Both the position numbers and the translations under genes were made by a program. Source: Strigops habroptila (lineage: Eukaryota > Chordata > Aves > Psittaciformes > Psittacidae). Taken from it: a DNA stretch of 64,000 nt. Below are positions 1 through 6,000 of the stretch, piece by piece. The notes beneath the pieces were generated by a model. The model did no database searches and was not told the origin of the DNA. It was given only the letters and a program-made list of their open reading frames with translations. Numbering within the stretch: the stretch's first letter is position 1; every line of letters starts with the position of its first letter. The stretch covers positions 67,001 through 131,000 of the forward strand of contig NW_022651116.1 in NCBI RefSeq assembly GCF_004027225.2, in the 5' to 3' direction.

Positions 1-3000
1 CATCACCACCATCGCTTCCAAGGGGGAGCTGCAGATGTGGCCGGAGCTTCTCCCTCAGCTCTGCAACCTCCTCAACTCCGAGGACTACAACACGTGTGAG
101 GTGTGTGGGACCTGGGGGGGGGTGTCACTGGGGGGGGGGAGCCCCTTGTCTGGGGCTGACCCCCCCCCACTTTGGCACCCAGGGAGCGTTTGGGGCCCTG
201 CAGAAGATCTGTGAGGACTCCTCCGAGCTCCTGGATAGCGACGCGCTCAACCGGCCCCTCAACGTCATGATCCCCAAGTTCCTTCAGTTCTTCAAGCACT
301 GCAGCCCCAAGATCAGGTATGGGGGGGGGGGGGAACTTGGGGGGCACACCCCCCCCACACCTACTGCAGCCCCATAGTCGGGTGGGGGGGGGGTGTTCAA
401 GGGGATTGGGAATGTTGGGGGGGCTGCCCACAGCCGTGAAGCTTGGCTGTTGGATGGGGTGAAGTGGGGAATGGGTGATTCCTGTGCCCCCCGCCACAGG
501 ATTTGCATTGGGGGTGTCCTCATCTTTCCCTCTCTCCAGCTTCATTTGTGCCCCCCCCCCCAAATTGGGGTGATTTGGGGGTCCTCCACCCACATTAGGC
601 ATCTCAAGCTCACCCAACATCATCCCATGGGGATCATGCTCTATGTGTGTGTCCCAAGCATGAACTGGGGCACAACTGTGGGGTGCTGGGGGGGGTCGGA
701 GGGAAGGATTGGGGCTGCCCCCCCCTTCTTTTTCACCTCATTTGCTACCCCCCCGTCCCCCCAGGTCCCACGCCATCGCCTGCGTCAACCAGTTCATCAT
801 GGACCGGGCTCAGGCGCTGATGGAGAACATCGACACCTTCATCGAGGTGAGTGCAACCCCCCCATAGGAGCAGCTCCGAGGCGGGGGGGGGGGGACACAG
901 CAGTGAGTGTGTGTGTGTCCCCCCCCCTTTTTCTCCCCAGCACCTCTTTGCTTTGGCTGTGGATGAGGACCCCGAGGTGCGGAAGAATGTGTGCCGCGCG
1001 CTGGTGATGCTGCTGGAGGTGCGCATCGACCGCCTCATCCCCCACATGCACAGCATCATCCAGGTGAGGCCTTGAGCAGCAAAAAGGGGGGGGGGGGGGG
1101 GGAAGGAGCCCATCGGACCCCCCCATGGGTGAGTTTTGGGGTTCATGTGTCATTTCCCCCTCCCTTTCATGCAGTACATGCTGCAGCGGACACAGGACAG
1201 CGACGAGAACGTGGCCCTGGAGGCCTGTGAGTTCTGGTTGACGTTGGCCGAGCAGCCCATCTGCAAGGAGGTGCTGACCTCCCATCTGGTGCAGTGAGTG
1301 CTCGGGGCACCCCCACCTCATCCCCCAGCACCCCAAAGACCCTCCTCACCCCCCTAATTTCCCCCCTCCTCCTCCAGGCTTATCCCCATCCTGGTGAATG
1401 GCATGAAGTACTCGGAGATCGACATCATCCTGCTCAAGGTGTGAGGTTGGGGGGGGACGGGACTCCATTCCAATGGGAATGGGACCCTCTTCCCGCGCTG
1501 TGGGGCTGGAAGTGGTTAAAGTGGAGGGGCTGGGCCAAAGCAGGACCCCCCCTGAGCCCCCCTGGATGTGATGACAGCTTCAGAGCTGATGCTTGTGATG
1601 GTTCTTGTGTTCGTACTGTCTGATCTATGGGGCTGAGCATCCCCGGGGGGGGGTGATGGAGGTTCCTTGGGGTGGGACGTGATGTCCCCTTTGTCCCCCC
1701 AGGGTGACGTGGAGGAGGACGAGGCCATTCCCGACAGCGAGCAGGACATCAAGCCCCGCTTCCACAAGTCCCGCACGGTGACGCTGCAGCACGAGGAGGA
1801 GCGGGCGCAGGACCCCGAGGACGCAGAGGATGAGGATGACGATGACACCCTCTCAGATTGGAACCTGAGTATGGAGGGTGGGGGGTGCCCTTCGGGGGGT
1901 GCCAGCCGCAGGTTTTGGGGGGGGTTAAAGCCCACGTGGGGTGCGATGGAGCCCGTGTCCCCGCAGGGAAGTGCTCGGCCGCCGCGCTGGATGTCCTGGC
2001 CAACGTCTTCCGGGAAGAGCTGCTCCCGCATCTGCTGCCGCTGCTCAAGGAGCTGCTCTTCCACCCCGAGTGGGTCATCAAGGAGTCGGGCATCCTGGTG
2101 CTGGGCGCCATCGCTGAAGGTGGGTGCTGTGCTCGTGGTGCTGGGCGCCATCGCTGAAGGTGGGTGCTGTGCTCCTGGCTTTGGGTGCTGTGCTCGTGGT
2201 GCTGGGGGCCATTGGTGAAGGTGGGTGCTGGGAGCCATTGCTGAAGGTGGGTGCTGTGCTCCTGGCTTTGGGTGCTGTGCTTGTGGTGCTGGGCACCATC
2301 GCTGAAGGTGGGTGCTGTGCTCCTGGCTTTGGGTGCTGTGCTCGTGGTGCTGGGGGCCATTGGTGAGGGGGGTGCTGTGCTCCTGGCTTTGGGTGCTGTG
2401 CTCGTGGTGCTGGGAGCCATCGCTGAAGGTGGGTGCTGTGCTCCTGGCTTTGGGTGCTGTGCTTGTGGTGCTGGGCGCCATCGCTGAAGGTGGGTGCTAT
2501 GCTCCTGGCTTTGGGTGCTGTGCTCGTGGTGCTGGGCGCCATCGCTGAAGGTGGGTGCTGTGCTTGTGGTGCTGGGCGCCATCGCTGAAGGTGGGTGCTG
2601 TGCTCGTGGTGCTAGGGGTCATTGGTGAAGGTGGGTGCTGTGCTCATGGTGCTGGGCACAATCGCTGAAGGTGGGTGCTGTGCTTGTGGTGCTGGGGGCC
2701 ATTGGTGAAGGGGGTGCTGTGCTCATGGTGCTGGGCACCATCGCTGAAGGAGGGTGCTGGGCGCCATTGCTGAAGGTGGGTGCTGTGCTTGTGGTGCTGG
2801 GCGCCATTGGTGAAGGGGGTGCTGTGCTCATGGTGCTGGGCACCATCGCTGAAGGAGGGTGCTGGGCGCCATTGCTGAAGGTGGGTGCTGTGCTTGTGGT
2901 GCTGGGCACCATCGCTGAAGGAGGGTGCTGGGCGCCATTGCTGAAGGTGGGTGCTGTGCTTGTGGTGCTGGGCGCCATTGCTGGAGGTGGGTGCTGTGCT

Positions 3001-6000
3001 CCTGGCTGTGGGTGCTGTGCTTGTGGTGCTGGGCGCCATCGCTGAATGGGGGTGCTGTGCTCTTTGTTTGGGTGCTGTGCTCGTGGTGCTGGGTGCCATT
3101 GCTGGAGGTGGGTGCTGTGTTCCTGGCTTTGGGCGCCATTGCTGAAGGTGGGTGCTGTACTCCTGTCTCTGGGTGCCATTGCTGAAGGTGGGTGCTGTGT
3201 TCCTGGCTTTGGGTGCTGTGCTCATGGTGCTGAGCGCCATTGCTGAAGGTGGGTGCTGCGCTCCTAGCTTTGGGTGCCATTGCTGCAGGTGGGTGCTGCG
3301 CTCCTAGCTCTGGGTGCTGCGCTCCTGGCTCTGGGTGCCATTGCTGAAGCTGGGTGCTGCGCTCCTGTCTGTGGGCGCCATTGCTGAAGCTGGGTGCTGC
3401 GCTCCTGTCTGTGGGCGCCATTGCTGAAGCTGGGTGCTGTGCTCCTAGCTCTGGGTGCTGTGCTCCTGGGTTTGGGCGCCATTGCTGAAGGTGGGTGCCG
3501 CGCTCCTATCTCTGGGTGCCATTGCTGCAGGTGGGTGCTGCGCTCCTGTCTCTGAGCGCCATTGCTGATGGGGGGTGCTGCGCTCCTAGCTCTGGGTGCT
3601 GCGCTCCTGGCTCTGGGTGCCATTGCTGAAGGTGGGTGCTGTGCTCGTGGTGCTGGGAGCCATTGCTGGAGGTGGCTGCTGTGCTCCTGGCTTTGGGTGC
3701 TGTGTTCCTGGCTTTGGGTGCCATTGGCGGAGGTGGGTGCTGCGCTCCTGGCTCTGGGCGCCATTGCTGAAGCTGGGTGCTGCGCTCCTAGCTGTGGGTG
3801 TCATTGCTGCAGGTGGGTGCTGCGCTCCTGTCTCTGAGCGCCATTGCTGATGGGGGGTGCTGCGCTCCTAGCTCTGGGTGCTGCGCTCCTGGCTCTGGGT
3901 GCCATTGCTGAAGCTGGGTGCTGCGCTCCTGTCTGTGGGCGCCATTGCTGCCAGGGGGGGGTGGTGTGGTGCGGCTGGGTGCGCGGGTGCTGCGCTTTTG
4001 GTTCTCGGGTGCTGTGCTCCTGGGTTTGGGTGCCATTGCTGAAGCTGGGTGCTGCGCTCCTGTCTGTGGGCGCCATTGCTGCTGGTGGGGTGGTGCGGCT
4101 GGGCGCGCGGGTGCCGCGCTCCCATTCTCGGGTGCTGTGCCTGACGGTGCCCGCGCCCGCAGGCTGCATGCAGGGCATGGTGCCCTACCTGCCCGAGCTC
4201 ATCCCGCACCTCATCCGGTGCCTGGCGGACAAGAAGGCGCTGGTGCGCTCCATCGCCTGCTGGACGCTGAGCCGCTACGCGCACTGGGTGGTGAGCCAGC
4301 CCCCCGACATGTACCTCAAGCCCCTCATGACCGAGCTCCTCAAGCGCATCCTCGACAGCAACAAGCGGGTGCAGGAGGCTGCCTGCAGGTACAGGATCCC
4401 CCCCCCCCCCAACGTTGGGATTTAGGGTGCTGGGGCCGGGCAGGATGAGGGGTTGAGGTGCTGTGGTGAAGGGGGGGGGGAGCAGAGGAGGCCGCGGGGA
4501 TGGGCTCTGGGGGCAGGGGGAGAGGTGGGAATGAGGGGCTGGAGAGGAGGAGGCTCCGAGGAGGCCTTGGAGTAGCTCCAGTGGGTGAAGGGGCTGTAGG
4601 GAGCGTGGAGAAGGGCTTTGGATGAGGGATGGGATGAGGAGGAATAGGTTCCAATGGGATGAGGAGGAACAGGTTCCGATGGGATGAGGAGGAACAGGTT
4701 CCGATGGGATGAGGAACGGCTTCTGATGGGATGAGAAGGAACAGCTTCCAGTGGGATGAGGAACGGCTTCTGATGGAATGAGAAGGAACAACTTCCAGTG
4801 GGATGAGGAGGAACAGCTTCCAGTGGGATGAGGAACAGCTTCTGATGGGATGAGAAGCAGCAGCTTCCAGTGGGATGAGGAGGAACAGCTTCTGATGGGA
4901 TGAGGAGGAATGGCTTCCAGTGGGATGAGGAACAGCTTCTGATGGGATGAGGAGGAACAGGTTCTGATGGGATGAGGAGGAACGGCTTCTATTGGGATGA
5001 GCAGTATCAGGTTCCAGTGAGATGAGGAGGAACGGCTTCTGATGGGATGAGGAGGAACAGCTTCTGATGGGATGAGGAGGAACAGCTTCCAGTGGGATGA
5101 GGAGGAACAGCTTCTGATGGGATGAGGAGGAACGGCTTCCAGTGGGATGGGGAGGAACGGTTTCCAGTGGGATGAGGAGGAACGGCTTCCATTGGGATGA
5201 GGAGAAACAGCTTCCAGTGGGATGAGGAGGAACAGCTTCTGATGGGATGAGGAGAAGCAGCTTCTGATGGGATGAGGAGGAACGGCTTCCAGTGGGATGA
5301 GGAACGGTTTCCAGTGGGATGAGGAGGAACAGCTTCTGATGGGATGAGGAGGAATGGCTTCCAGTGGGATGAGGTGGAACAGCTTCCAGGGGGATGAGGA
5401 GAAACGGCTTCCGATGGGATGAGGAGGAACAGCTTCCAATGGGATGAGGAGAAGCAGCTTCCAGTGGGATGAGGAGGAACGGCTTCCAGTGGGATGAGGA
5501 ACGGTTTCCAGTGGGATGAGGAGGAACGGCTTCTGATGGGATGAGGAGGAATGGTTTCCAGTGGGATGAGGAGGAACGGCTTCCAATGGGAAGAGGAGAA
5601 ACAGGTTCCAGTGGGATGAGGAGGAACGGCTTCCAGTGGAATGAGGAGGAACGGCTTCTGATGGGATGAGGAACAGCTTCTGATGGGATGAGGAGGAACG
5701 GCTTCCAGTGGGATGAGGAAGAACAGCTTCTGATGGGATGAAGAGGAACAGCTTCCAGTGGGATGAGGAAGAACAGCTTCTGATGGGATGAGAAGGATCA
5801 GCTTCCAGTGGGATGAGGAGGAATGGCTTCTGGTGGGATGAGGAGGAACAGATTCTAGTGGGATGAGGAGAAACAGCTTCCAGTGGGATGAGGAGGAACA
5901 GATTCTAGTGGGATGAGGAGAAACAGCTTCTGATGGGATGAAGAGGAACAGCTTCCAGTGGGATGAGGAGGAACGGCTTCCAGTGGGATGAGGAGGAACA

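Follow-up and report, generated by a model that had tools for sequence, protein, structure and literature searches.

Tandem copies of an exon edge and its splice donor fill TNPO2 intron 8 of Strigops habroptila

Introduction

Where would a long series of sequences nearly identical to an intron's own splice donor come from, and what would become of transcripts spliced at them? We considered these questions for TNPO2 of Strigops habroptila in a 64,000-nt window (the whole stretch of DNA analysed, positions 67,001 to 131,000 of contig NW_022651116.1; coordinates below count from its first base). The window is 66% GC with many tandem arrays, and the host contig of 241,945 bases is 63% GC and dense in minisatellites.

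The process called "exon stuttering" or sequence stuttering is known from the dot chromosomes of the chicken (Hron et al., 2026, Genome Biol Evol, PMC12954441), where it affects 236 introns, copied donors among them, with 1-44 copies per intron and a median of 4. With regard to copied splice sites, the available text of that paper mentions only "potential alternatively spliced transcripts".

Results

Twenty TNPO2 exons in the window keep a frame open to the stop codon, with the array confined to an intron. After splicing, the reading frame aligns with human transportin-1 across 387 aa (E 5.7e-227), and the residues VLGAIAE are the same in human transportin-1 and at the TNPO2 exon edge. The gene has 19 introns in the window, of which 17 measure 82-448 nt and contain no TRF array; introns 8 and 9 (window numbering) measure 2043 and 2055 nt. 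The features concerned are as follows, with a slash marking each splice junction:

1967..2119, + strand: TNPO2 exon, eighth in the window; 153 nt, in the reading frame, acceptor CCGCAG/GG, donor GAAG/GTGGGT
2096-2119, + strand: array-seeding exon segment, the last 24 nt of exon 8
2120..2125, + strand: authentic 5' splice site AAG/GTGGGT, as placed by the open frame; pairing with U1 at -11.0 kcal/mol
2120..4162, + strand: intron 8 in window numbering; tandem repeats over 99% of its 2043 nt, 42 unit copies
4163..4388, + strand: next exon, acceptor CCGCAG/GCTGC, frame intact
4630..6293, + strand: separate 25-bp array inside the next intron (4389-6443), purely intronic stuttering

Nearly end to end, intron 8 is a minisatellite with periods of 26, 40 and 61 bp, whose unit opens with the final 24 nt of exon 8 and the donor GTGGGT. 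An ungapped scan of the + strand of the 64 kb with a 26-mer (17 nt of exon end and 9 nt of intron start) found 41 places with at most 8 mismatches, all within 2103-4093, and none in the rest of that strand; the best place on the - strand has 9 mismatches. Two further copies (2352 and 2694) included by eye bring the array to 43 units, namely the exon and 42 intronic copies of its edge that differ in fidelity, a copy number taken from one assembly in which misassembly is possible. Unit spacings are 40 bp (21 times), 61 (12), 26 (4), 60 (2), 39 (2) and 91 (1). The count bears out the sequence-only reading of this locus, which had proposed that the exon end and its donor were amplified about 40-fold into a minisatellite.

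Several observations support derivation of the array from the edge of exon 8, as the same reading had held. The last 24 nt of the exon recur as four exact intronic copies and one 23-nt match (46.1-48.1 bits), ending at base 153 (four matches) or 152 (one) of the 153-nt exon, and the top score in 200 shuffled versions of the intron is 26.3 bits, so that the resemblance far exceeds chance. These 5 matches lie above the published threshold for stuttering, a BLASTn-short match of at least 20 nt and at least 42.1 bits that exceeds shuffled introns (PMC12954441). No exon match occurs in any of the gene's remaining 18 introns in the window. When the whole genome was searched with an 86-base border query, skipping common words and scoring only the best candidates, the matches listed numbered 21, all in this stretch of the host contig (C88). 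Furthermore, the corresponding intron in two TNPO1-type loci holds no exon-derived match, so that the ohnologue elsewhere lacks the array: in C26 it is 1094 nt long and 34.5% GC and TRF reports nothing, and in C25 it is 1654 nt and 38.4% GC with only a 1.9-copy 19-mer. Both loci have an intron at the same position, and intron 8 is therefore old. Copying from the acceptor side was rejected, as the downstream exon (4163-4388) has no match within intron 8. In the next intron (4389-6443), no exon-derived match was found for the 25-bp array.

It might be argued that an ordinary GC-rich minisatellite merely happens to look like exon 8, given a window so crowded with arrays and the presence elsewhere in the genome of tandem donor-like octamers, than which a backward control pattern is commoner still. 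We reject this explanation as scarcely credible on the strength of the exact 24-nt matches, which score 48 bits when none of 200 shuffles exceeds 26, the confinement of the 26-mer scan to the array and the lack of exon matches in the other introns. Three consecutive copies of AGGTGGGT gave 53 overlapping matches genome-wide against 93 for the backward control, and three of AGGTRAGT gave 8 against 84. Tandem donor words are therefore not enriched genome-wide and are fewer than in the control, although the matches overlap and the loci are few. Three of the listed contigs were inspected by eye and none looked exon-seeded: the donor word is antisense to the adjoining coding exon in C49 and sense but not an exon copy in C54, while C57 shares its unit with C49 and showed no exon in the stretch inspected.

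Unit similarity to the exon declines with distance from it (rho 0.52-0.64), and the copied ATC codon is kept in 11 of the 21 proximal units and 0 of the 21 distal ones. Both results support the earlier proposal of expansion from the exon side with distal decay, the older units being the distal ones. Two companion claims fared less well. Distal units were said to read mostly gaagctggg, but only six do so (3333, 3373, 3413, 3756, 3897, 4028). Selection against distal donors had also been suggested, but GT is kept in 14 of 21 proximal and 12 of 21 distal units, and 7.7% of random column pairs show at least as many changes as the GT columns, where the surplus is slight. Overall, 16 of the 42 copies lack GT, and strong donors number 11, 8 and 5 of 14 by thirds of the array.

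A series of donor-like sequences nearly identical to the real one was likewise confirmed, with 24 strong extra donors counted at a threshold of -11.0 kcal/mol that was chosen after the real donor's value was known:

2160..3818, + strand: 24 decoy donors [ACG]AG/GTGGGT, U1 duplex at least as strong as that of the real donor
2160, 2221, 2247, 2308, 2429, 2490, 2551, 2591, 2631, 2671, 2776, 2881, + strand: decoy donors 1-12
2947, 2987, 3108, 3148, 3188, 3249, 3289, 3491, 3531, 3632, 3733, 3813, + strand: decoy donors 13-24
2155..2157, + strand: first in-frame TGA for transcripts using any donor from 2160 on

The CAG/GTGGGT decoys at 3289, 3531 and 3813 reach -12.5 kcal/mol, a predicted U1 pairing clearly stronger than that of the real donor; three GAG/GTGGGT decoys are marginally better at -11.1 kcal/mol. 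The + strand of the assembled contig holds 66 strong donor-like sites, and 25 of them, counting the real donor, fall within the intron 8 array. RNA accessibility, considered as a possible reason for the first donor to win, gave a mixed picture: by accessibility of the 9-mer the real donor ranks 20, 14, 13, 3, 5 and 3 among these 25 sites in six folding windows.

All 24 strong downstream donors would bring the same TGA (2155-2157) into the mRNA in frame. The stop comes from the copied GCT-GAA, whose frame is displaced by one (the 40-nt unit being 1 mod 3). The shared TGA defeats the proposal that stop-poor units give variable in-frame peptide insertions, even though some donors lie at distances from the real one divisible by 3. 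Full retention of intron 8 meets 10 stops, and among its 202 GTs only offsets 0, 4, 9, 15 and 18 stay stop-free through the whole of the next exon; offsets 4, 9, 15 and 18 include no strong site, and add at most 6 residues or, at offset 4, shift the frame. For array donors entered in the normal frame, the sequence of this allele refutes such insertions.

Discussion

TNPO2 intron 8 is a well-resolved case of the already published exon stuttering. As described for that process (PMC12954441), the edge of a coding exon and the adjacent splice site recur as imperfect tandem blocks through the intron, the exon is intact, the source lies at most one base from the border, the array is absent from the ohnologue, and the contig is GC-rich and repeat-dense. 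Differences from the account of PMC12954441 are that its threshold accepts 5 copies here, our 42 including diverged copies and so not being comparable with the chicken range, and that intron 8 has no canonical G-quadruplex motif, in contrast to the G4 route that its authors float as one possibility. G4-driven expansion at intron 8 was set aside for lack of a G3+N1-7 motif on either strand, other kinds of G4 being possible; across the whole window the canonical motif gives 1044 and 813 overlapping matches on the two strands. TNPO2 receives 0 mentions in the main text of Hron et al. (PMC12954441), and in its available text we found neither a frame and stop analysis nor the density of intact decoys. 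A literature search on minisatellites at splice donors and TNPO2 intronic repeats found no report of the intron 8 array.

Other systems offer partial parallels. Introns have reportedly been gained through tandem duplication of AGGT-containing exon segments, for example in potato RdRp (PMC4974935); this likewise copies a splice signal by tandem duplication, whereas the TNPO2 intron is old and its copies come from the edge beside the donor rather than from the acceptor exon. DOK7 intron 4 has two alternative 5' splice sites 11 nt apart that differ by a frameshift, as shown by RNA (PMC5585400). There too, adjacent donors compete and one leads to a premature stop, whereas TNPO2 has 25 near-identical sites over 1.7 kb that are known from sequence.

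We consider it likely that the array is exon-seeded intronic stuttering with no dedicated function, in which splicing takes the first donor and the decoys are ignored or unproductive. A border segment (24 nt of exon and about 16 nt of intron) would have undergone tandem duplication, after which slippage, unequal exchange or gene conversion may have carried it to 42 copies, lengthening an intron that was probably about 100 nt, as the 82-448 nt of 17 of the 19 introns counted here suggest, to 2 kb. Coding selection would hold the exon copy fixed while outer copies diverge, producing the similarity gradient. The authentic first donor is presumably used and the 24 intact decoys passed over; decoys, if used, would yield premature-stop messages removed by nonsense-mediated decay. 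Counting against this explanation are the three decoys whose predicted strength is clearly above that of the real donor, the high number of steps (10) at the GT columns, and the acceptance of only 5 of the 42 copies by the published match threshold. In addition, where 5' splice sites compete, the site nearest the acceptor is often favoured, and the array would then be harmful.

The step count bears on an alternative in which decoys are mildly harmful and purged by selection faster than the units decay elsewhere. Ten parsimony steps at the GT columns, against 0-2 each at +3 to +10, suggest that decoys may not be wholly neutral, and strong donors do thin out by thirds. Yet 10 steps are reached by 3 of 34 adjacent column pairs in one analysis and 4 of 36 in another (GT itself counted) as well as by the random pairs noted above, mean steps are 2.3 over the 9-column donor and 2.2 elsewhere, GT retention differs little between proximal and distal units, overall divergence also grows with distance, and the units are not independent; we regard purging as unlikely.

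More improbable is a dial in which some transcripts use array donors, hit the TGA at 2155 and are degraded, with array length tuning the level of TNPO2. Decoys that equal or exceed the real donor in U1 strength, all leading to one stop, and the share of the contig's strong sites held by the array would suit such a dial, but the decoys carry no sign of conservation, GT has been lost from more than a third of the copies, strong donors dwindle outwards, and the published process also builds arrays without copied exon edges, as in the next intron. In its broadest form, a bank of two dozen competing donors, of which three are predicted to surpass the real one and whose number probably varies between individuals, would make TNPO2 output follow array length through unproductive splicing, and exon stuttering would be a general route to heritable splicing noise for dot-chromosome genes; we hold this to be a very long shot.

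For stuttering without a dedicated function, the sequence shows the array anatomy, its exon origin, the gradient and the consequences for the frame, whereas the mode of duplication, the starting length of the intron, first-donor use and NMD are inferred. Intron 8 is a clean case, in which one of 25 near-identical donors is productive and 24 lead to one shared stop codon; this outcome, together with the density of intact decoys, lets the locus serve as a natural test for competition among 5' splice sites. RNA from TNPO2 would bear on the precision with which the spliceosome selects the first among many equal sites, and the expression cost of repeat growth at exon edges would bear on the loss of dot-chromosome genes.

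Results

A transportin gene with an exon-derived array

The first 8.7 kb of the window carry the greater part of a transportin gene, starting near residue 114. Once spliced, its exons within the first 4.4 kb align with residues 114-501 of human transportin-1 (387 residues, E 5.7e-227), and the reading frame continues to a stop codon ending at 8704. We call this gene TNPO2 because the same genome (1.149 Gb in 89 contigs; the window is C88:67001-131000) contains two more transportin loci, on contigs C25 and C26, and because an F-box gene and an Asterix (WDR83OS) gene follow it downstream, both of which we take to be neighbours of TNPO2 in human. 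Genome size, gene content and a dot-chromosome texture suggest a bird. Two exons at C25 share 122/126 residues with human TNPO1 and 116/126 with the window gene; these two loci may represent TNPO1 on either sex chromosome.

Features of the arrays discussed (window coordinates)
1967-2119, + strand: source exon, 3' end CTGGTGCTGGGCGCCATCGCTGAAG followed directly by GTGGGT
2120-4162, + strand: array intron (intron 8), 99% tandem repeat
4630-6293: independent 25-bp array, 67 copies, filling most of intron 9, no exon-derived match
45243-45561: array of about 20 bp, CAGGTAGGGGACCCC, with 5 donor-like sites (the contig's second largest cluster), right after a NACC1-like stop

After the exon edge we count 42 copies of the exon-donor border, spaced at 40 bp in 21 of the 42, 61 bp in 12 and 26 bp in four. 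Scanning with 26 nt of the border gave 41 places, all within the exon edge and its array and none elsewhere on the + strand of the window; two extra copies with larger changes were included by eye. Genome-wide, 86 bases of the border gave 21 hits among the matches listed, all in the array intron and exon edge. Five copies pass the published screen (BLASTn-short, at least 20 nt, at least 42.1 bits) at 46-48 bits, against a maximum of 26.3 bits in 200 shuffles, which bears out the exon origin proposed in the sequence-only reading; divergence or breakage leaves each remaining copy, taken alone, below the cut-off.

The window contains 19 introns of TNPO2, and matches to exon sequence are confined to intron 8: five from the upstream exon, none from the downstream exon and none from other exons. 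Seventeen of the 19 are 82-448 nt long and without a TRF array, and intron 9 (2055 nt, 81% covered) carries a purely intronic array. The equivalent intron at C26 (1094 nt, 34.5% GC) has no exon matches and no TRF array, and that at C25 (1654 nt, 38.4% GC) has no exon matches and one 1.9-copy 19-mer.

Polarity of the array

Units farther from the exon match it less well (rho between mismatch and distance 0.64 over 51 alignment columns and 0.52 over 26; n = 42, with units non-independent and p values nominal), with means of 1.9, 2.1 and 3.7 mismatches per 26 by thirds outward. The exon's ATC codon is kept in 11/21 proximal and 0/21 distal units, all others having ATT, and over 42 columns units no more than 5 apart differ by a mean of 6-7 and units 20-30 apart by 10-11. 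On the simplest reading, the array would have been seeded at the exon and homogenised locally, the distal units being older; the growing mismatch and the loss of ATC support the earlier suggestion of expansion from the exon side with distal decay.

Candidate decoy donors and their predicted consequences

Counting the real donor, the intron holds 25 [ACG]AG/GTGGGT sites, all with predicted U1 duplex energies at or below the real site's -11.0 kcal/mol; nominally, six of them pair more strongly than the real site does, three with -12.5 and three with -11.1 kcal/mol. Thirty shuffles of the intron averaged 0.9 sites at real-donor level (maximum 4), and outside it 18 such sites occur on the + strand of 6301-64000 and 10 on the whole - strand of the window. 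The next largest cluster in the assembled contig (241,000 bases, 5565 of them N) has 5 sites and follows a gene that, we assume, resembles NACC1; a Pfam search of this gene gave no match.

A 40-bp step moves the reading frame on by one base (40 is 1 modulo 3), so that the first copied GCT-GAA reads c-TGA-a. The resulting TGA (2155-2157) precedes the second donor and would therefore be present in every product of the 24 strong downstream donors, irrespective of their distance modulo 3. Only five of 202 GTs, at offsets 0, 4, 9, 15 and 18, are stop-free through the end of the next exon, and none of the last four is among the strong sites; full intron retention brings 10 in-frame stops. The idea that the array supplies variable in-frame insertions thus fails. 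A stop codon followed at a distance of over 50 nt by further exon junctions usually makes a message an NMD target; by this rule array-donor messages, whose later junctions lie that far downstream, would be predicted targets.

GT is retained in 26/42 copies (14/21 proximal, 12/21 distal), and strong donors number 11/14, 8/14 and 5/14 by thirds outward. On a unit tree that takes no account of exchange between units, the GT columns show 10 changes. Of the 34 adjacent column pairs, two besides GT have as many, and this number is reached by 7.7% of random column pairs and by 4/36 pairs in a wider alignment; mean steps are 2.3 over the 9 donor columns vs 2.2 elsewhere. Judged from sequence, these patterns are suggestive at most of selection against decoy donors.

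Other repeats

A 52-bp array (17907-18962) adjoining the Asterix gene has acceptor-like CCCCCGCAGG in many units and lies, by eye, just inside the apparent first intron of a - strand gene, presumably WDR83. An ORF at 48398-49240 (+), which we take to resemble IER2, contains an in-frame 42-bp coding minisatellite (48627-48902, about 6.6 copies, 96% matches) encoding DPRSTRDRADPASP-type repeats. On a further contig (C54:54400-55400, - strand), an intron of a presumably MAP2K-like kinase gene contains an array in which donor-like AGAGGTGGGT sites recur on the sense strand; read by eye, they are apparently not derived from the exon of that gene.

Discussion

Exon stuttering is already known, and TNPO2 intron 8 is a further case. 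The sections of Hron et al. 2026 (PMC12954441) drawn on here describe the same phenomenon in 236 chicken introns of 115 genes, 190/236 of them on dot chromosomes. There, stretches of exon measuring 20-187 bp are present in 1-44 copies (median 4) that extend over 112-23,555 bp, and donor or acceptor sites are copied as well; 183/192 exon-stuttering introns in the length screen were length-variable. Compared with these sections, TNPO2 intron 8 shows each defining feature tested to a result, its count of 42 not being comparable with the published 1-44 as thresholds differ, and it likely lies on a dot chromosome. The same sections report no RNA test of copied splice sites, nor did we meet in them a uniform premature stop combined with two dozen intact decoys, a combination that makes TNPO2 intron 8 a good test case.
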